Positions 3,701 through 50,154 of a stretch of DNA of 63,374 nucleotides are shown here, in pieces. The translations under genes and the position numbers were made by a program. The DNA comes from Nostoc sp. FACHB-152 (GTDB lineage Bacteria > Cyanobacteriota > Cyanobacteriia > Cyanobacteriales > Nostocaceae): assembly GCF_014697475.1 (NCBI RefSeq), contig NZ_JACJRV010000037.1, positions 1 through 63,374 on the forward strand, read 5' to 3'. The stretch's first letter is position 1; every line of letters starts with the position of its first letter. The notes beneath the pieces were generated by a model. It ran no database searches, was not told the DNA's origin, and saw only the letters and a list, made by a program, of their open reading frames with translations.

Positions 3701-6700
3701 ACGCCAACATCTACTTGGGACGTGCCGGGTTTGTCGTTAACTCACTTGCCCCTTGATAATAAAACTGTCAAATTTGATTTGTTTTTGGAATTAGCTGAAA
3801 CACAGACTGGTCTAGTAGGTTACTTCGAGTATAGTACCGACTTGTTTGCAGCGACGACGATCGCTCGGATGGCTGAACATTTCCAAAAACTACTGGAGGA
3901 CATCGTTGCCAATCCAGATGAGAAAGTCGATAGATACTCCTTGCTCACAAAAACCGAGCAACAACAACTGCATACATGGAATCAGACTCAAAGCGATTTT
4001 CCTCAAGAATGTATTCACCAATTGTTTGAAGCGCAAGTATTAAGAACACCGAATGCGATCGCCATTGAATTTGCCGGACAGCAATTAACTTACCGAGAAT
4101 TAAATCAGCAAGCAAATCAAGTAGCAAATTATTTGCAAACCCTGGGTGTAAAACCGGATGTTATTGTCGGTATTTGCATTGAGCGATCGCTCGAAATGAT
4201 GATTGGGCTTTTAGCAATTCTCAAAGCGGGTGGAGTTTATGTACCATTAGACCCAGCTTATCCGCAAGAACGTTTAGCATTTATGCTCAACGATTCACAA
4301 GCACCAGTATTATTAACGCAGCAAAGTTTGATTGACAAGATGCCCAAACATAATGCACAGGTAGTTTGCATAGACTCTGATTGGCATATCATTGTCAAGC
4401 AAAGCCAGGAGAATCCAAATAGTGGAGTAAAACCTGAAAATTTAGTTTATACAATTTACACATCAGGTTCCACAGGTAAGCCCAAAGGAGTGCAAATTAA
4501 ACACTGTTCACTGGTCAATATTCTATCTTTCATCGCTCAGAAACCAGGACTGAGCGAGCAAGATATCCTCTTGGCTGTGACTACCATCTCGTTCGATATT
4601 GCAACTATCGAGCTTTACTTACCGCTAATTGTCGGTGCGCGCATTGCCATAGCTAGCCGCGAAGTTGCTTCTGATGCTTTACAACTAGCTGAGTATATTG
4701 AGCGATCGCGTGCGACTTTTATGCAAGCTACCCCAGCGACTTGGCGAATGCTCTTAGCAGTAGATTGGCAAGGTAATCCACATCTGAAAATTCTTTGTGG
4801 CGGTGAAGCTTTGACGAGAACACTGGCAGACGAACTGCTTAAAAGGTGTTCCTGTGTTTGGAATGTCTATGGGCCAACAGAGACTACCGTCTGGTCTACA
4901 ATTTACAAATTAGAATCAGGAAATAATTCGGTACCTATTGGTTGTCCCATTGCCAATACGCAAATTTACTTATGCAAACCTGATAAAAATCACCAACATT
5001 CTTTACAACTTGTTCCTATTGGTGTAGCAGGGGAATTATATATTAGTGGTGTGGGTTTAGCTCAAGGATACCTTAACCGACCTGAATTGAACCAAGAGAG
5101 ATTTATTCATAACTCCTTTGGTAATGGGCAACAAGATTGTCTGTATAAAACTGGTGATTTAGCTCGTTATCTTCCAGACGGTAACATTGAATATTTGGGT
5201 AGAATCGATCACCAAGTTAAAATTCGTGGATTTCGGATTGAATTAGGAGATATTGAAACTGCACTCAGCCAACATCCTACTGTGAGGGAGATAGTAGTTG
5301 TTGCCTATGATGAGCGATTGGTTGCCTACCTCGTTCCTAAATCAGAAAAATCAGCACAGGATGCCTCTAATACATCCCAAATTGAACAACTACAACAGTG
5401 GCAAACAATCTGGAATGAATCTTATAGCCAGTCTGCAATCGAGCAAAATTCCAAGTTCGATCCAAAATTCAATATCATCAGTTGGAATAGCAGTTACACA
5501 GGATTAGCGATCGCCGCTCAGGAAATGCAAGAGTGGGTAGATCGAACAGTTGAGCGAATATTATCTTTACAACCGCAGCGCGTTTTAGAAATCGGTTGTG
5601 GAATGGGGTTGTTGCTGTTTAGAATTGCTCCCCACTGCTCCTATTACTTTGGGATGGATATCTCAGCAACAGCCATCTGTTACCTAGAGCAGCAATTAAA
5701 GCAGCAGAATTTATCCCAGGTAAAACTTGCCACTAAAGCCGCAGATGCACTTGATGAATTAGAACTGGAAAGCTTTGACGCGATCGTGATTAACTCTGTA
5801 ATTCAGTATTTTCCTAGTATTGACTACTTGGTGAGTGTTTTAGAAAAAGCAGTAAAGTTAGTCAAGCAGGGGGGATACATCTTCATTGGAGATGTACGCA
5901 GCTTGCTGTTGCTAGAAGCTTTTCATACATCCGTGCAGTTATATCAGGCTGCCGACACTTTGCCCATAGAGGAACTGCGACAGCGCGTCCAAGAACGTAT
6001 GGCTCAGGATGGAGAATTAGTTATCGATCCAGCCTTTTTTCATGCCCTCAAGCAACATCTATCTCAGATTAGTCATGTACAAATTAAACTTAAGCGTGGT
6101 AGTTATCACAATGAAATGACTCGCTTTCGTTACGATGTCATCCTTCATATCGATACCAAGGTGAATCGCACTGTAGAACCAACTTGGCTAGGTTGGCAAC
6201 CGGATTTAACTTTGTCTACAATCCATAAACTTCTACAAGACACTGAACCAGAATGTTTTGGTTTAGCCCGTATTCAGAATTTACGAATTCTGGCGGATGT
6301 TCAAGCTACTAAATTGTTGGCATCCAATGATTTTCAAACAGTGGGCGAACTACGGGCAAAATTACAGGTAAATACACAGCTAGTAGGCATTGATCCGGAA
6401 GCACTGTGGAATTTGGGCAATTGCTTACCTTACACTATCCACACTCAATGGTCAGCTTCAAATGCACCAGACTGCTATGACGTAGTATTTCAGCGACAAA
6501 CAGATGACAAGAGCATAATTGATTTCTTCTCTGGCAAAACTGCTCCCATCAAACCTTGGAGTGCCTACGCTAATAATCCTCTTAAAAGTAAACAAGCAGA
6601 CAATTCAGTAAATCTGGTACCGCAACTGCGTGCTTTTCTGAAAGAGAAACTACCTGATTATATGATTCCTGCTGTCTTTGTCGTCATGGACTCCTTACCT

Positions 6701-40873: not shown

Positions 40874-41175
40874 GAGATATATAGGTTTTGGCGATTAGAC
40901 ATTAAGGCTAACTTTGTTCATTTTATCTATTGTTCATCACCAAAGTTGCATTCGCCTTTTTGTCTTTAGCATAGACTGACTCTTGGGTAAAAGTAGCTAA
41001 AAAGAAGCGTAACAGCTAACTACCACCTAAGACTCTATACTAATCATCAAATTAAATTATAGTTGAAATTTTATCCCGCAGCTTGGAATTACAGATCAGC
41101 CCCAAATATCTGATTACATATTAAATTTATTAAATTCTGCATTATTTAATACTAGCGAGGTGCCAAAAAATTCGT
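40874..41175. other. Spacer upstream of ndhB, nothing recognisable
   Basis: AT-rich spacer of 302 bases between the ndhB start and the end of the NHL protein gene. It must contain the ndhB promoter. No hairpin or small gene stands out. Confidence 0.4.
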
Positions 41176-42684
41176 TTAAGGGATACAGATATCTGGCGCA
41201 CATAAACCCGGAAATTTCAATGTTGTTACCTCAAAGGTATTTAAATCCACGCGACGAATAGCATGGTTATTAGTATCACTAATATATAAATAATTACCCA
41301 TAACACTCAGCCCTGAAGGTTCAAAAAAGCGGCTATTATTTGCTTTTCCATCTAGTAAACCAGCAACACCATCCCCGAAAACTGTTTGGCTATTACCGCT
41401 AGTAGGACTCACCAATTTAATTTTGTGATTGTAAGTATCTGCTACCCAGAGAAAATTTTGAGCATATTCTACCCCCATACAGTGCTGTAGTCTTAAATCA
41501 GTACCTTGTCCATCCACATCACCAAAACCAAATAACTGTTGACTACCGCAAACAGTTCGTACTTGGTAAGGTTCCACAATTCCCAATGCACGAATTGAAC
41601 TGATTTCACTGTCAGCAATATATAACTCTTGCCCATCAGTAGTAATACCACTAGGTTGAGCAAAAGCAGATTCAGCTATTGTTCCATCAACGCAACCCTC
41701 TGCACCAGTTCCTGCATATGTTTTGACAATGTTAGTTTCTAAATCCATTTGCCAAATTTGATGGGAACCTGCCATTGCAATGAATAAAATATTCCCTACT
41801 TTGACTAAATCCCACGGAGAATTTAGGGCTGTTTCTAAAGCATCGCCTGCAAGAGGATGAATGTTGTGACTTTGTTCACCAGTTCCAGCAATTGTTTCGA
41901 CTACTTGATTTTTTAAATCTATTCTCCGCAAAGCATGATTTTCTGTATCAGCTACATAAAGGCTTTGGCTTTCAATATCAAATGCCATTCCCTGTGGTGC
42001 AGAAAACTGTGCTTCACTAAAACCACCATCAGTTAAACCTGATTTTCCTGTACCAATTACACCCAAAACTTCACCATCAAAGCTACTCATAACTAAGCGG
42101 TGATGTCCAGAATCAGCAATAAATAAACCTGCTGGTGTGGCTAAAACTTTACCCGGAAAAGCTAAGGGTGAGATTATTGGTTGTTGCTGTTTTTCTAGAA
42201 TATGGCTGATTTCTTGAAAGTTAATTGTGCCTTTTTGTTGGTGTTCTTCAATTACCTTTGCAACTAACTGATCTAAAAAATCGCGCTTGCCTTCACCAGA
42301 AACATAACCAATCACGTAACCTTTTGGATCAATAATCATAAACGTTGGCCAAGCACGCACGGTGTACTCTTGCCAAATCCGAAAATCTTGGTCTACGACC
42401 ACTGGGTGTTCTATGTCGTAGCGCAAGATAGCTTGACGAATATTTTCAGTTTCTTTTTCGTTGTCAAATTTGGCGGAGTGAACGCCGATAACTGTCAGGC
42501 TATCTTTATATTTATGTTCGAGATATTTCAGGTCAGGTAGAATGTGCAGACAATTAATGCAGCAGTATGTCCAAAAATCTAAGATGACAACTCTACCCCT
42601 AAGTTGTTTTAAAGACAATGGTTTATCAGTGTTTAGCCAAGCATAATTTTGCGGTAATTCTGGCGCTCTGACACGTGGAGTCAT
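41176..42684 (-). CDS. Thioredoxin-like / NHL-repeat protein, NHLRC2-like
   Basis: 502 residues. An N-terminal thioredoxin-fold domain (about 1-150) has the motif CCINC (Cys41, Cys42, Cys45) in DFWTYCCINC and a cis-Pro region RAWPTFMII. A six-bladed NHL propeller follows (about 170-495), with repeats such as LYVADTENHALRRIDL and LYIADSEISSIRALG. The same two-domain order is found in animal NHLRC2, whose biochemical role is poorly defined. A redox activity is suggested by the CxxC. No signal peptide is seen. It starts 27 bases after the stop of the WD40-GTPase-TIR gene on the same strand, so the two may be co-transcribed. Confidence 0.85.
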   Translation of the reverse strand: MTPRVRAPELPQNYAWLNTDKPLSLKQLRGRVVILDFWTYCCINCLHILPDLKYLEHKYKDSLTVIGVHSAKFDNEKETENIRQAILRYDIEHPVVVDQDFRIWQEYTVRAWPTFMIIDPKGYVIGYVSGEGKRDFLDQLVAKVIEEHQQKGTINFQEISHILEKQQQPIISPLAFPGKVLATPAGLFIADSGHHRLVMSSFDGEVLGVIGTGKSGLTDGGFSEAQFSAPQGMAFDIESQSLYVADTENHALRRIDLKNQVVETIAGTGEQSHNIHPLAGDALETALNSPWDLVKVGNILFIAMAGSHQIWQMDLETNIVKTYAGTGAEGCVDGTIAESAFAQPSGITTDGQELYIADSEISSIRALGIVEPYQVRTVCGSQQLFGFGDVDGQGTDLRLQHCMGVEYAQNFLWVADTYNHKIKLVSPTSGNSQTVFGDGVAGLLDGKANNSRFFEPSGLSVMGNYLYISDTNNHAIRRVDLNTFEVTTLKFPGLCAPDICIP

Positions 42685-42711
42685 ATCAATAGATGTTTAT
42701 ATTTTGTCAAA

Positions 42712-45700
42712 TTATTCATAATCGAGTGAATTTGGCAGCGTAATTCCTTTGATTAAATCTTCCAATGGTTTTTTCTCATTCATATTTTTAACGAACTGCA
42801 CCCAGTTCAATCCTTTCAAAAATAAAAATTCTGGGTCATCTGGTATTTGATTAACACCTGGTAACAATATTGGAATTAAAGGTATCTTTTCTTTAACTCT
42901 TCTATCGTGTAGCGATCGCAATTCTTCAAGTTGATAATCACCTAAACCATGAGAACTAATAAAAACTGCAGCTGATTTAGATTGTTTAATACCTTTTTGA
43001 ATCCAATCTACAAAGCTCTGCCCAACAGGAATTTTTTCTTTGTCTAACCAAGGGTTCAACCCTCGCCTTCTTAAAGAGTTAGCAATTTTTTCTACTAGAG
43101 GTTTGTCTTTACTATTATGAGATAAAAATACATCAAAGTCATTGGTTACAAGTTTGCTTTCAATTTTACGCCCAGTATCAGCAGCTTTATCCATTTTTGG
43201 AATAGTTTCGTTACTAATTACTGTCAAACTTTTTTCACTTACGGTCAAATTTTCTTCACTATCCAGCAAGGAAACAGAGGTATCGCAGACATTACAGTTA
43301 ATAAAGTCATAACCGCGCGATCTCCTACCCTCAGCCTGCTTCTCTGTAACAGGCGTTTCGCATTCAGAGCAAACAAAAATGCGACGGCTACGGATACTGT
43401 CAGGTAAAGCCCGCCGTTTAAGATGAGTGTGTACATATTTTTCAAATTGCAGCCTTGCCTCTTCACTGGCTTCGGGTTTAAAAAATAGGGTTAATTCGGC
43501 TTTGCCTTCATCAATATTGCTGAGGTAACGTAACCAAATGCCATACTCACCACCGTTTGTAGTTGTAAATATAGCAGCATTTTTCCACATTTCTTTACGT
43601 TGAAAAATTTCGCTACGAGATAGACGTATTACTAAAGTTGTATATACACTTATTACTGCACCTTCAAATTCAAAAATTACTGTTTTACCTTCTGGATCTG
43701 GGGCTTCTGGCCATTCACGGGTTAACTGAGAAGGGAAAACGAGCAAAGGTTCAGGATCGGTTTGAACACGCAAAGCAATTTCACGATCAATTAATTCTTG
43801 AACTGTAGCAATTAAAAGTAATTTTTCTTGTTGTTGATCAGCAATTCTTTCACATTCTGGCATCCGAAACCTGGCAGCTAATACGTCTTCTTCAACAATG
43901 TAACCCATCCCGTCGGGTTCATCTTTCGCGGCGTTAATAATTGCTGAGGCGTAAGCATCTAAGAGTTCTGGTTGCAGCAGAATCAAATTGCCAAAGCTAA
44001 GTCTGCGAATTAAATCCCGCGACTCCACTAGCCCAATACAGGTGTCAAATTGCTCTCTTACTTCTGTACAATCAGTAAGATCATTCCTGTGTTTTAAGAA
44101 TGCACGGTATAAGTCATTTGCTGGGGATAGCAGCCTTTGATATTTTTCTTCTTGAACTAAAAAATATTTAATTTTCTGAAATACTTCTGTTGAAATTACT
44201 TTTGGTAAATTATCCCATTCAATTGCTTCACGAATTGCTGTGATCAGTTCTGGAATTTTCCATCCTTCTTTAGCACTAGTCTCAAAATATTGATCAAAAC
44301 CTAACTCTTGTACTAAAGCATCAATGCGTTTTTTATTAACACTAAGACTACCTCTATCTGTACGGGCAATGACTAAAATTTTTTTTAAACTGAGCGCACC
44401 ATCACCTTGCAATTTTTGCGCTTGCTTCAAAGCCCGATTCCAGTAATAAACTCCAGCAAAGGGATCAGTTTCACTACGAGCATCGATTACGATTAAGGCA
44501 ACAGCTAATTCATTCAAATGTAATTGATGAATTAGGCGATAACTAGGCTGTCCGGCTAAGTCCCACAGAAGTATTTCTCTTACTTCGTGGCGATCTTCAT
44601 TTAATTGCAAATCTTGTTTGTCAAAAGTCCAAACATGACGACCGTGTGTTGATTCTGTAGGTCGGAATTCTTGATTAGTTAATACTAAACTTAAACCAGA
44701 CTTACCTACACCAGTTTCACCAACTAACACTACCTTAGCATTTCTGTATAAAGCAGAAGGATTAGTGATAGGGGTATTTAACAAAATATCTGGGTCAATC
44801 TTCCAAACACGAATAGCAGTATCAGCTGCGCCTAAAGTTGCCAAAATAGGTTTTTGTGGATGGAAAGCTAACCCAAAAGGCAGAGATTTAGATGTTTCCT
44901 CTTTCAGTACTGTTACAGTCTCCCAATTATCACAACGCCAAAGGCGAACAGTACCATCAGCAGATTTAGAGGCTAGAAATCTACTATCATGAGAAAATTT
45001 CACACAATTTACTGAGCCTGTATGTCCTTCTAATACAAATAATGTTTGTCCTGTTTGAGGATTCCAAAGCCGAATTGTGTTGTCAACAGAACTTGAAGCC
45101 AATAATCTTCCATCTGTTGACCAAGCAACACTATAAACATCTCCAGAATGACCTCTGAGGATTTTTTTCAGTTGTGTTGTTTCTTTATCCCAAAGACGAA
45201 TTGTGCTGTCGTGAGAAGCAGAAGCCAAAACCTTTCCATCTGAAGACCATGCCAAACTATTTATTTGCCCTGAATGTCCTGGGATATGTTGTCTTTTTCT
45301 GGTTTTGATATATCCGAAAATAATTGACCAATCATCGCCTGTCCCGCCACTAGCAACTATTGTGTTATCTGGAGACCACGCCATACACAAGCATACGCCT
45401 GTGTGCATGGGGAATGTTTCTATTAATTCCTCAGTCTCAACTTTCCAAACGCGAACAGTATTATCAGCTGAGCCAGAGGCAATATATTTACTATCTGGAG
45501 ACCAAACAATTGCCCAGACCCGCCCACTGTGGCCTTTAAGGGTATAAATACATTTACCAGTTTTGAAATCCCAAATTTTAACTGTACTGTCAAATGATGC
45601 TGATGCTAACATTTCTCCATTTGGAGACCATTCTACTCGGCTAATTAACCCATTGTGTTCGTGAAGCTCATATGTAAGTTGCCAACCATAAGGTATTGCC

Positions 45701-45723
45701 TTGGCATTCACTAAATTTTCCAT
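42712..45723 (-). CDS. WD40 - Ras/Roc-like GTPase - zinc ribbon - TIR protein, NLR-like
   Basis: 1003 residues. WD40 blades fill about 20-315 (GHSGRVWAIVWSPDSKYIAS and similar). A Ras/Roc-type GTPase starts near 332 with Walker A GETGVGKSG, switch II WDLAGQ and a G4 motif degenerated to ARTDRG. A COR-like helical/winged region covers about 500-750. Two paired Cys motifs (CSECETPV and CNVCDTS, about 783-820) form a likely zinc ribbon. A TIR domain closes the protein from about 860 (DFDVFLSHNSKD), with a candidate catalytic Glu in QLEELRSL. Bacterial TIR domains commonly cleave NAD+ on activation, and WD40/GTPase modules sense and oligomerise. The architecture suggests an abortive-infection or signalling protein; that role is inference. 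It is divergent from the NACHT gene and precedes the NHL protein gene. Confidence 0.9.
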   Translation of the reverse strand: MENLVNAKAIPYGWQLTYELHEHNGLISRVEWSPNGEMLASASFDSTVKIWDFKTGKCIYTLKGHSGRVWAIVWSPDSKYIASGSADNTVRVWKVETEELIETFPMHTGVCLCMAWSPDNTIVASGGTGDDWSIIFGYIKTRKRQHIPGHSGQINSLAWSSDGKVLASASHDSTIRLWDKETTQLKKILRGHSGDVYSVAWSTDGRLLASSSVDNTIRLWNPQTGQTLFVLEGHTGSVNCVKFSHDSRFLASKSADGTVRLWRCDNWETVTVLKEETSKSLPFGLAFHPQKPILATLGAADTAIRVWKIDPDILLNTPITNPSALYRNAKVVLVGETGVGKSGLSLVLTNQEFRPTESTHGRHVWTFDKQDLQLNEDRHEVREILLWDLAGQPSYRLIHQLHLNELAVALIVIDARSETDPFAGVYYWNRALKQAQKLQGDGALSLKKILVIARTDRGSLSVNKKRIDALVQELGFDQYFETSAKEGWKIPELITAIREAIEWDNLPKVISTEVFQKIKYFLVQEEKYQRLLSPANDLYRAFLKHRNDLTDCTEVREQFDTCIGLVESRDLIRRLSFGNLILLQPELLDAYASAIINAAKDEPDGMGYIVEEDVLAARFRMPECERIADQQQEKLLLIATVQELIDREIALRVQTDPEPLLVFPSQLTREWPEAPDPEGKTVIFEFEGAVISVYTTLVIRLSRSEIFQRKEMWKNAAIFTTTNGGEYGIWLRYLSNIDEGKAELTLFFKPEASEEARLQFEKYVHTHLKRRALPDSIRSRRIFVCSECETPVTEKQAEGRRSRGYDFINCNVCDTSVSLLDSEENLTVSEKSLTVISNETIPKMDKAADTGRKIESKLVTNDFDVFLSHNSKDKPLVEKIANSLRRRGLNPWLDKEKIPVGQSFVDWIQKGIKQSKSAAVFISSHGLGDYQLEELRSLHDRRVKEKIPLIPILLPGVNQIPDDPEFLFLKGLNWVQFVKNMNEKKPLEDLIKGITLPNSLDYE

Positions 45724-46341
45724 ATAAGTTTTATCTTTTTTAGCTAGTTTTTATTGTGTAGTTTAAATTCAATAGATTTTCCTTAGACAGGATATACAAA
45801 GCATTTTATTTAAAGAACTAATGTTTGATTCGCAAATAATATAGATATACTTATATATAGTCGTTTAGGTGATAATTAAAATTTTTAGCTTATATGTTGG
45901 TACCTAGCGATAAAGAATTTTGCTATAACAAAATATTTATATTTTATATAATTTTATACTATTTAGCAGATTGTAATAGGTTAAATTAAAACATTTTTAT
46001 TGAGAATATAAAGTAAAAATAGAAGTTATCAACTTTAATTAAGGCTTTTTTCGGAAACTAGAGGTAATAAGCGGTAATTAGCGGCAATTTTATTAGACAA
46101 CTTGGATTTTAATCGCACATAAAGTACCATTAAAAGTTGGAGATTTTTTGATTCTCATTTAAAAAAAAATAAGTTATAAGTTTGCGGAAAAATTAACTTT
46201 ACAAAGGAATTATTAATATAGGCTTTGGGTATGATCTTAGTTAAGGCATATCTACATATCATGCTAGAACTAAATTCACTGTATCACGGAGATGGTTTTT
46301 AATTGTTATACACGCTTAAAAATAGTTAATAGGAGGAAGAC
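45724..46341. promoter_or_regulatory. Divergent promoter region between TIR and NACHT genes
   Basis: 618 bases, very AT-rich, with no gene. It must hold the promoters of both divergent genes and contains the phased repeat cluster at 46053-46092. The NACHT gene has a strong AGGAGG at 46331-46336, five bases before its ATG, unusual in its strength for this window. Confidence 0.55.
46053..46092 (+). repeat. Cluster of four 10-bp direct repeats upstream of the NACHT gene
   Basis: Four consecutive decamers read GGAAACTAGA, GGTAATAAGC, GGTAATTAGC and GGCAATTTTA. The middle two are the strongest, and the first and last are weaker matches. The spacing equals one helical turn, so the GG dinucleotides lie on the same face. 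The same motif recurs in inverted orientation behind the gene at 48797-48836. Confidence 0.75.
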
Positions 46342-48699
46342 ATGGCAGCGATTCAAGTTAATGAAGTTATTTTTCAGAAGCTAAAACAGGCATACTCTGA
46401 AAAGTTTGGAAGTTCGCCCACTTCTTTAGTCAATAAATTAAATCATGTTTTTAAAGAAGAATTCGATGACAAAAATGAGAAGTTAATTGCAGAGCGGACA
46501 ATTCGGAATTTTTTTAATTCTCCTGCGGTTCCAAAAATGCAAGAGAAAAATCTTAACTACTTATGTACTGTTCTTTTAGAGAAGAAAAGTTATACAGAAG
46601 CTGTAAACGAAATCAAGAATAATCACCCTGATATTGAAGAATATTCACTAGATAGTTATTGGAAACATCTTGAAAGAAAGTGCAAAATGATGAAGGTTTT
46701 GGATATGAATGAGCCAAGACCTATAGACAGTATTTATGTAAGGTTTAGTCTGATAAAAAATCCTCATGCCTCTAGGCAGCAAACTATTCAGTCTTTATTA
46801 AACTATCCAGATAATGAATTACATGAGAATGTTTATAAACGTTTACGCTTTTCTGGAAATGAATCTTATGAGCCAGCATTAGACGCTGCTATTAAATATC
46901 AGAAGCTGATAATTTTAGGAAAACCAGGAGCAGGTAAGACAACATTTCTAAAATATTTAGCTATGCATTTTATAGCAGAAGAATCAAACGATAAAGTTAT
47001 ACCAATTTTTATTGCTTTGCGAGATATATCAGATAACGGAGGTCATTTTAGCTTATTAGATGAAATCATTAAGGAGTTTACTAATTGTATGCCTAATTCA
47101 GAAAAAAATGTTTCAAAATTATTAGAGCGTGGGCAATGCTTAATTTTATTAGATGGCTTAGATGAAATTAAGGTTGATAATAATAGTATTTATAGTCAAA
47201 TTGATGAATTTACAGAGAAATTTCCTGATAATCGCTTTATAATTACTTGTAGAAATGCGGCTTGTGATTATGTTTTTAATGATTTTACAGAAGTAGAAGT
47301 TGCCGATTTTGAACCAGAAGAAATCAAAACATTTGTCAGAAATTGGTTTCAATCTCGTGGAGAAGACAATATTTGCGATCGCTTTCTCAAAAAACTAGAA
47401 GAAAATCAACAAGTTAAAGAATTAGCTACTAATCCTTTATTGTTGACAATTTTATGTTTGACTTTTGAGGATAACTATGATTTTTCTAGCAATCGCTATG
47501 CTTTATATGCAGATGCAGTAGATACTCTTTTAAGAAGATGGGATGCCAGCCGTCGGGTAGAACGTAGGCAGCATTTTAATATATCACGCCAGCGTAAAAT
47601 TAATATGTTTAGTGAAATAGCTTATAAAGGTTTAAGTAATGAACCAGCCAAATTTTTATGGACTCAATGGGAATTAAAAGACCAAATTGATCACTTTCTT
47701 CAAAAAATTGTTTCTGAAGAAATAGATACTCAAGAAATTCTTAAGCGTATTGAAGCAAATCATGGATTACTAATTCAACAAGCCAAAGGAATTTATTCTT
47801 TTGCTCATTTAACCTTTCAAGAATATTTTGCTGCTGAATATATAGTAGAAAATCGCCAACCAGAATTTCTCAAGAGTTTCGTCAAACAAAACTTATTAGA
47901 AAGGCATTGGCGAGAAGTATTTATTTTAATCACAGAAAGACTCAGCGACGCAGATGAATTTTTAAAGCTAATTTTTTCATATACCAATGACATTGTAAAA
48001 AATAGCCCAGGATTACAATCTATGCTTAGGTGGCTACACAAAATGACTTCTAATGCTGGCATTTCATCTAGCGGATGGAGGGCTTATTACTTAGCTATTG
48101 ACTTAGATGTAGAACTTTATATTAGTCAAGATATCCAAATTGAACGCTCTCTTTTTGGAAAATTAGCAACTGAGTTAAGAAATTATAATAAAAAACGCAA
48201 CAAGTTAACTCCTCCCCAACCGAAAGCTTTGCTTATCTCTCGATTAGTAGGAATTCATGCTTTAGCTATAGATCAAGCTAATATTGATAATAAACTTAGT
48301 GAAAAAACTGAGTTCACCCGCAAAGTCTTTCAACTCAAAAATATTAATGAACAACTAAGTTTTGCAATTGATAAAGCACAAGAAGCAAATATTAATGATT
48401 TAGCAAATAAATTAATAATCTTACAAAGCCGTCATCCTGGTAGTAATGCTTCTAGTTTCGAATGGAAGATATGGGCAGTAGAATTACAAAAACTTATGGT
48501 TAATTATCTTGAGGTTGGTTACAGCATCGATCTCGCGCCAGAGGATGTTAAAGCTTTAGAAGATTATATTTATGCAAATTACTTATTACTAGAGTGTATT
48601 TGTGGAGAAAATAATTCTTCAAGAAGCCTGAGAGACGCAATCATTGATAATTTGCTGTTACCTCAAGATGAGATTCCTACTCCTTTGTTAAATGTTTGA
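46342..48699 (+). CDS. NACHT-domain NTPase, NLR-like, candidate antiphage protein
   Basis: 785 residues. The N-terminal 90 residues form a small helical, HTH-like unit (IAERTIRNFFNSPAVPKMQ). The stretch around MKVLDMNEPRPIDSIYV is typical of the segment before NACHT domains in cyanobacteria. The NACHT core has Walker A GKPGAGKTT (about 192-200), Walker B CLILLDGLDEI (about 267-277) and a sensor region NRFIITCRNAACDY. It continues through NPLLLTILCLTFE and FAHLTFQEYFAAEYI. The C-terminal 250 residues are helical and unfamiliar; no nuclease or protease effector is recognisable. Bacterial NACHT proteins of similar layout protect against phage, so a defence role is plausible but unproven. A strong AGGAGG precedes the ATG. 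It is flanked on both sides by inverted clusters of a 10-bp repeat. Confidence 0.9.
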   Translation: MAAIQVNEVIFQKLKQAYSEKFGSSPTSLVNKLNHVFKEEFDDKNEKLIAERTIRNFFNSPAVPKMQEKNLNYLCTVLLEKKSYTEAVNEIKNNHPDIEEYSLDSYWKHLERKCKMMKVLDMNEPRPIDSIYVRFSLIKNPHASRQQTIQSLLNYPDNELHENVYKRLRFSGNESYEPALDAAIKYQKLIILGKPGAGKTTFLKYLAMHFIAEESNDKVIPIFIALRDISDNGGHFSLLDEIIKEFTNCMPNSEKNVSKLLERGQCLILLDGLDEIKVDNNSIYSQIDEFTEKFPDNRFIITCRNAACDYVFNDFTEVEVADFEPEEIKTFVRNWFQSRGEDNICDRFLKKLEENQQVKELATNPLLLTILCLTFEDNYDFSSNRYALYADAVDTLLRRWDASRRVERRQHFNISRQRKINMFSEIAYKGLSNEPAKFLWTQWELKDQIDHFLQKIVSEEIDTQEILKRIEANHGLLIQQAKGIYSFAHLTFQEYFAAEYIVENRQPEFLKSFVKQNLLERHWREVFILITERLSDADEFLKLIFSYTNDIVKNSPGLQSMLRWLHKMTSNAGISSSGWRAYYLAIDLDVELYISQDIQIERSLFGKLATELRNYNKKRNKLTPPQPKALLISRLVGIHALAIDQANIDNKLSEKTEFTRKVFQLKNINEQLSFAIDKAQEANINDLANKLIILQSRHPGSNASSFEWKIWAVELQKLMVNYLEVGYSIDLAPEDVKALEDYIYANYLLLECICGENNSSRSLRDAIIDNLLLPQDEIPTPLLNV

Positions 48700-48796
48700 C
48701 ATTTTGTTACGCATATCTCAATACCCTAGCGAGCGCAAACATATAATCTCATCAAAGTTAATTTGTATTGCTGTATACAAATTAACTTTTTTTTAA

Positions 48797-48836
48797 GGAT
48801 AATGCCGCTTGTTACCGCTTATTGCCGGATATTGCC
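48797..48836 (-). repeat. Inverted copy of the 10-bp repeat cluster downstream of the NACHT gene
   Basis: Read on the minus strand, 48836 to 48797 gives GGCAATATCC, GGCAATAAGC, GGTAACAAGC and GGCATTATCC in direct register. The two central decamers differ from the upstream cluster at only a few positions. With 46053-46092 it brackets the NACHT gene as an imperfect inverted repeat. Confidence 0.75.
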
Positions 48837-48901
48837 GTAAAGTTTATACTTTAAAAAGCATTCTGATACGCGTTTACAAGCAAGTTAGGAACAGCTAAGT
48901 T

Positions 48902-49099
48902 ATGTTGAACAAAGATAACACTATCAAACGCTCAGTGAAATTCTGTAATCACAAACCAGGCGATCCTTGGGAAGATGAAGGTTGTTGTGGACAGTTGGAA
49001 GTAGCCAATCAAGCCAAAGCGAATCCAAGAATTAATGAAGAAACTGGAGAACTAATCCAGCCAGATGAAGAAGATAATGCTATTCAGTTGACACCTTAA
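48902..49099 (+). CDS. Small acidic Cys-containing hypothetical protein
   Basis: 65 residues. A central group of residues (CNHKPGDPWEDEGCCGQLE) holds three Cys and one His that could bind a metal. The remainder is charged, with an acidic C-terminus. I recognise no family. It starts 66 bases after the repeat cluster and ends 40 bases before the glutaminase gene on the same strand, so it could be co-transcribed with glutaminase. Confidence 0.5.
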   Translation: MLNKDNTIKRSVKFCNHKPGDPWEDEGCCGQLEVANQAKANPRINEETGELIQPDEEDNAIQLTP

Positions 49100-49139
49100 G
49101 TAAGATCATTTTTATAAATTTCTGGATGTTGCATCACTA

Positions 49140-50042
49140 TTGAAAAAGCTGACAAGCTTAACTAAGACTCAATTACTCACCTGCATACAGCAAACTACAT
49201 CCCAGTTTGATACAGGAAAAGTGTGCGATCGCATTCCGCAATTAGCAAAAGCTAATCCTTCGTGGTTTGCCGTTCACGTCTGCTGTATCCCAGGTCAAAC
49301 TTACAGTTTAGGGAATACAGAATGTGTGTTTCCCTTAATGAGTGTGATTAAACCATTTTCATTTCTGTATCTGCTGGAACAGATGGGTGCAGACACAGTT
49401 TTGCAGTGGGTTGGAGTCGAACCATCGGATGCGGCTTTCAATTCTTTAGACCAATTAATTACTGATGGCGGACATCCCCGCAACCCCATGATTAATAGTG
49501 GTGCAATTACCCTAGCCGATAAATTACCAGGAAAAACAGCAAGCGATCGCACTTACAATCTGTGTCAGTGGTTAAATCAGCTAACAGATTCCCAACTATA
49601 TTTAGATGAAATCATGCTGGCTTCAGTACGCGCTTCACGTTCACCAGCCAACCAAGCACTCGTTAATTATCTAGCCGAACAAAATCGTCTCGACAATCCC
49701 GAAATAGCTCTTGACACATACGAGCAAATATGCTGTTTATCTGGGAAAGTTGAAGACTTAGCTTTATTAGGAAAAATCTTAGCTGGTGCTAATAATTTAC
49801 ACCATCATCGAATAGTCAACGCCGTTATGTTAACCTGCGGACTCTACCAAGCCTCAGCTAAATTCGCCATCAAAATTGGTCTACCCATGAAATCAGGCAT
49901 AAGTGGTGGACTGTTAGCCATAGTACCAAACCAAGGAGCGATCGCCTGCTACAGTCCCGCCTTAGATAGTATCGGAAATTCCGTAGCTGCGATCGCTTTC
50001 ATTGCGACTCTAACCCAAAAACTAGAGTTGAATATCTCTTGA
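49140..50042 (+). CDS. glsA: Glutaminase, serine beta-lactamase-fold type
   Basis: 300 residues; hydrolyses glutamine to glutamate and ammonia. The catalytic Ser-x-x-Lys is visible at Ser68-Lys71 in MSVIKPFS. Family landmarks follow: GGHPRNPMINSGAI and later the Lys-Ser-Gly-containing MKSGISGGLLAIVPN. Length fits the bacterial GlsA family (about 300-310). The start is a TTG at 49140. No ATG lies close in frame, and homologues begin with a comparable leader before the first conserved helix. It would oppose glutamine synthetase in nitrogen assimilation. Confidence 0.93.
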   Translation: MKKLTSLTKTQLLTCIQQTTSQFDTGKVCDRIPQLAKANPSWFAVHVCCIPGQTYSLGNTECVFPLMSVIKPFSFLYLLEQMGADTVLQWVGVEPSDAAFNSLDQLITDGGHPRNPMINSGAITLADKLPGKTASDRTYNLCQWLNQLTDSQLYLDEIMLASVRASRSPANQALVNYLAEQNRLDNPEIALDTYEQICCLSGKVEDLALLGKILAGANNLHHHRIVNAVMLTCGLYQASAKFAIKIGLPMKSGISGGLLAIVPNQGAIACYSPALDSIGNSVAAIAFIATLTQKLELNIS

Positions 50043-50060
50043 AAAAACTCTGTGTACCTC

Positions 50061-50115
50061 CCTTCGGGTTCACCAGTCGCCTGCGGAGGGAAACCCTCCC
50101 GCAGCGCTGGTTCAC
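50061..50115. repeat. GC-rich hairpin repeat between convergent genes
   Basis: ACCAG...CTGCGGAGGG-AAA-CCCTCCCGCAG...CTGGT forms a long, slightly mismatched stem much richer in GC than its surroundings. It lies between the ends of the glutaminase gene and the lipoprotein gene. It may act as a terminator, but its composition resembles the repeat-like sequence at 1-120 and dispersed Nostoc hairpins. Confidence 0.5.
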
Positions 50116-50154
50116 CGCGTTTACCTCAGCGTACCTTTGCGTTTAAAAAATTTC

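Follow-up and report, generated by a model that had tools for sequence, protein, structure and literature searches.

A NACHT gene of Nostoc sp. FACHB-152, located in a 63,374-nucleotide stretch of DNA (contig NZ_JACJRV010000037.1, referred to below as the window), is accompanied by two clusters of 10-bp repeat units, a left array before the gene and a right array behind it. The encoded protein is probably a STAND activator of transcription, with operators dedicated to it at the promoter of its own gene and at that of a small cysteine-rich (Cys-rich) partner, and its output would then be gene expression rather than direct killing. This proposal is built on what was seen directly, i.e. the arrays, the promoter geometry, the conservation and co-occurrence of these elements, and a model of the protein N-terminus that resembles a helix-turn-helix (HTH) domain. 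The features concerned are the following:

46053–46092, plus strand: left phased decamer array with a GGYAAY core (20/21), 250–289 bp before the NACHT gene, in the intergenic region shared with a divergent TIR gene
46342–48699, plus strand: gene of a predicted HTH-NACHT protein, 785 amino acids (aa), with NACHT (PF05729, 7.9e-18) and NCH2 (PF22727, 2.8e-15)
46363–46623, plus strand: N-terminal lambda-repressor-like HTH domain, residues 8–94, predicted from a structure model
48797–48836, minus strand: right phased decamer array (21/21), predicted upstream promoter element of the small open reading frame (ORF)
48822–48827, plus strand: putative -35-like TTGCCG within the right array, 17 nt before the -10-like box
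48845–48850, plus strand: -10-like TATACT, 8 nt behind the right array, its position kept in relatives
48902–49099, plus strand: small Cys-rich ORF, 65 aa, motif C-x-H-..G..W..-G-C-C, conserved partner of the window NACHT subfamily

The two arrays and the small reading frame

The left cluster reads GGAAACTAGA GGTAATAAGC GGTAATTAGC GGCAATTTTA on the plus strand (46053 to 46092) and has two to three good units, the first one being degenerate. The right cluster, read on the minus strand from 48836 to 48797, consists of four decamers, GGCAATATCC GGCAATAAGC GGTAACAAGC GGCATTATCC. Taken singly, GGYAATAAGC is found at chance level and is not enriched in the window (10 matches with at most one mismatch, 8.8 expected). 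The score for three phased units is 21/21 within 150 bp before the small ORF, a value reached by none of 300 first-order Markov shuffles, and 20/21 within 650 bp before the NACHT gene, reached by none of 200 shuffles. The double unit GGYAAYNNSCGGYAAYNNSCGG has three exact matches in the 8,618,724-base genome, all inside the left and right clusters; thus the two clusters described in the original prediction are real. With two mismatches there are seven further matches, one in the left cluster and six elsewhere, and a reversed control pattern gave six in the same genome.

Scanning genome contigs for the NACHT N-terminus yielded 29 loci in 28 genomes (loci and genomes carry L and G numbers; one genome contributes two contigs, L107 and L108). 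A homologue of the small ORF is present in 27 of 28 genomes with the NACHT N-terminus, in addition to the window, the exception being L093, whose contig is 5.6 kb long. At 27 of the 28 small-ORF promoters (the window and 27 relatives, among which L083 and L084 are not independent of the array, their small ORF having been located by means of it) the array scores at least 17/21; L109 scores 14/21. None of 300 shuffles reached the observed score for 26 of these promoters, with p=0.003 for L097 and p=0.013 for L109. As controls, 94 other 150-bp upstream regions at the same loci were scored, and 92 of them gave at most 15/21; one control above 15 (L096, score 18) belongs to a divergent gene that shares the left array.

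The distance from the array end to the small-ORF start codon is 45–79 bp in 27 of the 28 promoters, and 122 bp in L109 with its weak array. In 24 of the 28 a -10-like box follows the array at a distance of 8 or 9 nt; 1000 sets of shuffled tails gave 1.8 such boxes on average and 6 at most. By eye, the box of L085, L095 and L097 fits once it is shifted by one decamer, and no -10-like box was seen behind the small-ORF array of L106. The small ORF is upstream of the NACHT gene in L086, L088 and L098, on the opposite strand in L097, and 2–3 kb behind the NACHT gene in L085 and L095, and in each case the array moves along with it. Because the array accompanies the ORF when this is distant, upstream or flipped, comparison of the loci identifies the right array as a promoter element of the small ORF that is not tied to the NACHT 3′ end. 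The original prediction had placed the right cluster correctly as to position, as one side of a bracket around the NACHT gene, but had missed the small Cys-rich ORF to whose promoter it appears to belong.

The mirror arrangement of the clusters, also described there, is present in the window but is not kept in all relatives. Inverted arrays are complementary, and in the window they might pair in one transcript as RNA arms and shape the NACHT mRNA. Pairing of both arrays was ruled out, since not all relatives preserve their order and orientation (the small ORF is upstream in three loci and flipped in another, as listed above), and such a role is exceedingly improbable; no Rfam family was found in 45600–49200.

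The small ORF is constrained as a protein, since differences at codon positions 1, 2 and 3 are 822, 487 and 1595 in 210 pairs of 21 equal-length related cores (the window core, of different length, was left out of this count). No family match for the 65-aa sequence was found in Pfam, PADLOC or NCBIfam. A protein search gave 22 sequences at E≤0.1, including the window's own; none has a precomputed Pfam domain, and all are cyanobacterial wherever the source gave an organism. The set of C-H-C-C residues suggests that the small protein may bind a metal. In L105 (positions 6001–6258) the NACHT gene is open for just 85 aa and looks broken; the locus retains the small ORF with its array.

The NACHT protein and the left array

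The NACHT protein matches PF05729 above cut-off and contains the Walker motifs GKPGAGKT and LILLDGLDE, which places it among the NACHT/STAND NTPases. Its predicted model has a pLDDT of 83.5. The N-terminus models as a lambda-repressor-like HTH, and the fold matches obtained by structure search include SinR, TP901-1 CI and P22 C2; non-HTH rows among the structure matches listed (globins, large toxin chains and others) were taken as chance. Helix 51–59, with the conserved TIRNFF stretch, is likely the recognition helix. The first 160 residues have no Pfam match, and no N-terminal effector domain was recognised. A SARP DNA-binding or BTAD domain was not found among 18 Pfam families at E≤0.1, and NB-ARC is under its cut-off (17.1 versus 23.5 bits). 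The NCBIfam EruA match is weak (51.9 bits versus a cut-off of 1000), and PADLOC gives a match to PDC-S60 (1.1e-23).

The left array sits in the intergenic region between the NACHT gene and an oppositely oriented gene. On the plus strand, within 650 bp upstream, and with a score of at least 16/21 and p≤0.01, it was found before 21 of 29 NACHT genes of the subfamily, the window included. It is best on the minus strand in L092 and L107; the latter also has 16/21 (p=0.010) on the plus strand at the site of the stronger minus-strand match, and was excluded from the 21. In L084 it is located at about -735 relative to the NACHT gene. No left array was found before the NACHT gene of L090, L093, L094 and L103 and L109 has a weak one only, so that most, not all, relatives have an array before NACHT; relatives with the gene but lacking any array were among the refuting conditions of the original prediction. 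Shuffles are the fitting control for left arrays, because the left search covered 650 bp and the 94 control regions 150 bp each. A uniform distance to a -10 box was looked for across relatives and not found for the left arrays.

In the proposed mechanism the clusters would be operators of the NACHT protein acting as a STAND-type transcription regulator. Because the decamers lie one DNA turn apart, successive monomers would be placed on one DNA face, the N-terminal HTH binding the direct repeats with one monomer per decamer, and binding would become cooperative once the ATPase module oligomerises after a signal is sensed. At the right array the protein would cover the -35 region of the small gene's promoter, as at class II activator sites, because the array ends 8–9 nt before the -10 box; there it would most likely activate. 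At the left array the target would be the promoter of the NACHT gene itself, with the divergent TIR gene perhaps controlled as well. That the arrays function as operators is judged very probable, and binding of the NACHT N-terminus to them would be a good deal likelier than not; activation of the small ORF by the protein is reasonably probable.

The same operators and the same protein might instead serve repression, the bound NACHT protein keeping the small-ORF promoter shut until infection or stress lifts the block. Two points favour this reading. The last decamer lies between the -35-like TTGCCG and the -10-like TATACT, and because TTGCCG falls within the array at a 17-nt spacing, repression has to be taken into account. 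In addition, lambda-repressor-like folds are often those of repressors, SinR, TP901-1 CI and P22 C2 being in the structure list. On the other hand, XssQ, a STAND protein discussed below, is described as an activator (PMC8205485), and direct, not inverted, repeats over the -35 region resemble the activator sites reported for SARP proteins (PMC10972967). A repressor is considered unlikely.

Confinement of the arrays and pairing of motif with HTH type

A search for three phased units was made in 28 genomes that have the window NACHT subfamily, L105 being left out. With at most one mismatch there are 30 overlapping matches, 29 of them at the locus as placed by coordinates; these correspond to 23 distinct places, 22 at the locus and one elsewhere in G439. 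With at most two mismatches, 95 matches were found versus 19 for the reversed control pattern, and most of the 65 two-mismatch matches are away from the NACHT locus. A general dispersed repeat was ruled out at one mismatch or less, in the window genome and in those of the relatives. Occurrence of the array at hundreds of unrelated loci, which the original prediction named as telling against it, was not seen, the array being infrequent outside the locus.

In a set of 388 genomes from the order, 13 were found to have the NACHT N-terminus and 13 the small ORF, 10 of them having both, a comparison in which detection of linked pairs is favoured because both profiles were built from linked genes. 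The small ORF occurs without the NACHT gene in G045 and G138 (both doubtful matches, E 0.007–0.01, internal stop) and in G302, which has a NACHT remnant; NACHT without the small ORF is found in G369, with weak matches in G186 and G217. In G302 (L231) the small ORF, with a 20/21 array, is directly behind the NACHT remnant (residues 513–782). At positions 1–1353 of this locus a TIR-gene remnant (residues 793–963, minus strand) abuts the NACHT remnant, as if a deletion had removed the central part of the divergent pair, or as if the assembly were chimeric. The 3-kb loci from the 388-genome scan are mostly of the same species as the earlier relatives; an array of at least 16/21 is present in L113, L114, L115, L116 and L118 and absent in L110, L117 and L119–L123, of which L119 and L123 start at or near a contig end.

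Outside the earlier set, a plasmid of Leptolyngbya boryana encodes a NACHT protein with 39.6% identity over its full length. The record also has a small ORF of the same motif with a 21/21 array ahead of it, and a weaker match (17/21) about 100 bp before the NACHT gene. A second plasmid member, in Nostoc sp. TCL26-01, has a 21/21 array before the small ORF and appears to be the G322 locus.

The clusters had also been put forward as the termini of a small cassette that moves the NACHT gene, an arrangement with which the inverted clusters of the window, the patchy distribution of the family (13 of 388 genomes) and the plasmid-borne members agree. The window and L082, its nearest relative, however, show collinear similarity across 41168–50037 and beyond both clusters, each of which falls within a matched part, with no homology boundary at the repeats; moreover the right array follows the small ORF, not the NACHT 3′ end, and in other loci this ORF and its own array lie outside, upstream or flipped. 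Cassette ends were thus ruled out, and mobility of this kind is very improbable.

NACHT genes with other N-termini were then compared with the window subfamily. A total of 112 NACHT genes were sorted by N-terminus with regular expressions, and 600 bp upstream were searched for three motifs; in a first round the upstream length had been 600 bp for type A but 300 bp for the remaining types, and the repeat was made with equal length for all, some stretches being shorter than 600 bp. GGYAAY arrays (M1) were found before 22 of 28 type A genes (the window subfamily), with no M2 or M3. All six type B genes (LuxR-like N-terminus) have TGACTT repeats (M2), and one of the six has M1. Type C genes (RSLxAS...FF.G) have TGTATRANTT repeats (M3) in 32 of 60 cases, with one M1 and one M2 match, and the 18 type D genes (other N-termini, several of which look HTH-like by eye) gave one TGACTT match and no M1. 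In total there are four matches off the type/motif diagonal. Within 300 bp, M1 was found in 9 of 28 type A genes and in none elsewhere. From these sequences the array motif appears to follow the HTH type across NACHT genes, as counted for related genes that are not independent (many of type C are close orthologs) and for motifs of which GGYAAY was derived from the window and loosened after the relatives had been seen, while M2 and M3 were derived from part of the genes in the count. A phased-repeat test (p≤0.05) was positive for 12 of 32 HTH genes versus 6 of 80 background genes, and for 3 of 12 "other" genes, of which two (L018 and L175) are HTH-like by eye, as recognised afterwards.

The TGACTT repeats have 10-bp spacing and lie within 300 bp before the NACHT gene in L012, L020, L023, L165, L168 and L174, five of them at about 100 bp; in L012, L020 and L023 no second TGACTT array was found besides the run before NACHT. 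The M3 arrays consist of GTATAACTT or TGTATGAGTT repeats with 9- or 11-bp spacing, the former being the XssQ consensus AAGTTXXAC on the opposite strand. RSLxAS-type NACHT loci with such repeats are:

L032, L183, L189, L197, L198, L202, L206, L208, L211, L212, L214, L215 and others

Another regulator, e.g. an OmpR-type response regulator, could bind the arrays and control both genes, with NACHT only a target. HLR1 and pho boxes, examples of OmpR-type sites, are likewise 10–11 bp direct repeats near -35. PhoP is reported to compete with AfsR at the afsS promoter (PMC10972967). Against this, the motif is tied to one NACHT HTH subtype, and the array at one mismatch or less is almost confined to the locus in 28 genomes, therefore such a regulator would serve the locus alone. 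It is distinctly unlikely. Regulation by the NACHT protein itself, i.e. the HTH-binding sites and autoregulation offered in the original prediction, gains comparative support from the HTH model, from the 22 of 23 places at the locus and from the pairing of motif with HTH, with binding as such predicted from sequence and model.

Related systems, neighbouring genes and biological meaning

STAND activators with an HTH are already known. MalT of E. coli is a STAND activator that binds decanucleotide boxes cooperatively; it has a C-terminal LuxR-type HTH and no NACHT. New in the present case are the different subtype of HTH, the decamer arrays dedicated to the locus and the constant pairing with a small Cys-rich ORF.

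In Synechocystis sp. PCC 6803 the xss sulfated polysaccharide genes are activated by XssQ, a STAND protein whose HTH is N-terminal; the XssQ targets share single or tandem AAGTTXXAC, and binding is supported by electrophoretic mobility shift assay (PMC8205485). XssQ and XssR are reported to suffice for activation in Synechococcus elongatus (PMC13125312). A NACHT protein encoded on pSYSM adjoins two response-regulator genes and glycosyltransferases and is, from this position, probably XssQ; it has 37% identity to a type C HTH-NACHT over the full length. The window protein has 28% identity to it over 753 aligned columns (E 3e-78), i.e. homology in the NACHT and C-terminal regions. The BLASTP alignment starts at residue 74, and the N-termini differ, so that the window protein is not of the XssQ HTH subtype. 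If the pSYSM gene is XssQ, the two would have in common the HTH plus NACHT architecture, as predicted for the window protein from its model, and, from what is reported of XssQ targets, a short single or tandem motif in putative target promoters. In contrast to XssQ, which works with XssR/XssS and has several targets, the window protein has another HTH subtype and another motif. A AAGTTNNAC motif is located at L237:4953–4961 (pSYSM), about 40 bp before the NACHT gene at the XssQ position, which gives a hint of autoregulation. No small Cys-rich gene is among the 9 annotated features in 12 kb around the pSYSM gene, unannotated ORFs being unsearched.

AfsR of Streptomyces, a STAND protein, is reported to activate the neighbouring small gene, afsS, directly by way of direct repeats (PMC10972967). 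The window locus resembles this in having a STAND protein and an adjacent small gene with direct repeats over its predicted -35 region. AfsR differs in its SARP–NB-ARC–TPR architecture, as against lambda-repressor-like HTH and NACHT, and in its 11-bp units, and AfsS is termed sigma factor-like, unlike the small Cys-rich ORF. PimR, a SARP-LAL protein, is described as binding cooperatively to phased direct repeats (heptamer CGGCAAG plus 4 bp; PMC5930380). It has a different DNA-binding fold and host, with 11-bp units in the main operator and, as described, 10-bp units in a secondary one. The bNACHT/EruA antiphage proteins share the NACHT module with the window protein, whose N-terminus is, by its model, HTH-like and not a nuclease or other killing domain. 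Titles and abstracts gave no paper that connects a NACHT protein with both an array and a small Cys protein, subscription journals being mostly outside the search.

The gene opposite the left array in the window is:

42712–45723, minus strand: divergent WD40/small-GTPase-like/TIR gene, 1003 aa, conserved neighbour in the window's subclade

Genes of about 1000 aa are also opposite the left array in L081, L082, L083, L085 and L095. The three that were scanned (window, L085, L095) all have WD40 and TIR domains, and L081, L082, L083 and L085 have DNA similarity to the window gene. That a gene similar in size and position stands beside NACHT in five relatives suggests a conflict-related locus, and the divergent TIR gene is possibly a further target of the left array. 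In nine other loci (L087, L089, L091, L099, L100, L102–L105) the gene opposite the left array encodes 158–182 aa, and these nine resemble one another by BLASTP. Pfam gave nothing above cut-off for divergent neighbours of 144–182 aa (L087, HisKA, E 0.018). By eye, L087:4832–5380, L091:4878–5417 and seven similar loci look like a duplicated histidine-kinase dimerisation domain.

Two observations concern other repeats. GGTAAAAAGCGGCAATACGC (G000:C158:103477–103498) recurs nearly unchanged in many genomes, perhaps within a conserved gene, and window positions 50048–50150, behind a glutaminase gene, are a dispersed repeat with many short matches in the relatives' genomes.

Bacterial NACHT proteins are usually read as immune sensors joined to a killing domain. 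In the present locus the N-terminus is HTH-like, and a putative DNA site can be named for it; the unnamed small Cys-rich protein is the likely output. The TIR neighbour and the NACHT relatives suggest a role in conflict or stress. The pairing of motif and HTH suggested for dozens of cyanobacterial NACHT genes would make their targets predictable. As a tentative extension, and a doubtful one at present, the NLR-like NACHT proteins of filamentous cyanobacteria may be a large class of sensor-regulators, each HTH subtype with its own phased promoter array; the window subfamily, by turning on a small Cys-rich effector (and the divergent TIR gene in one subclade) when an invader is sensed, would be a conflict system with a transcriptional output.

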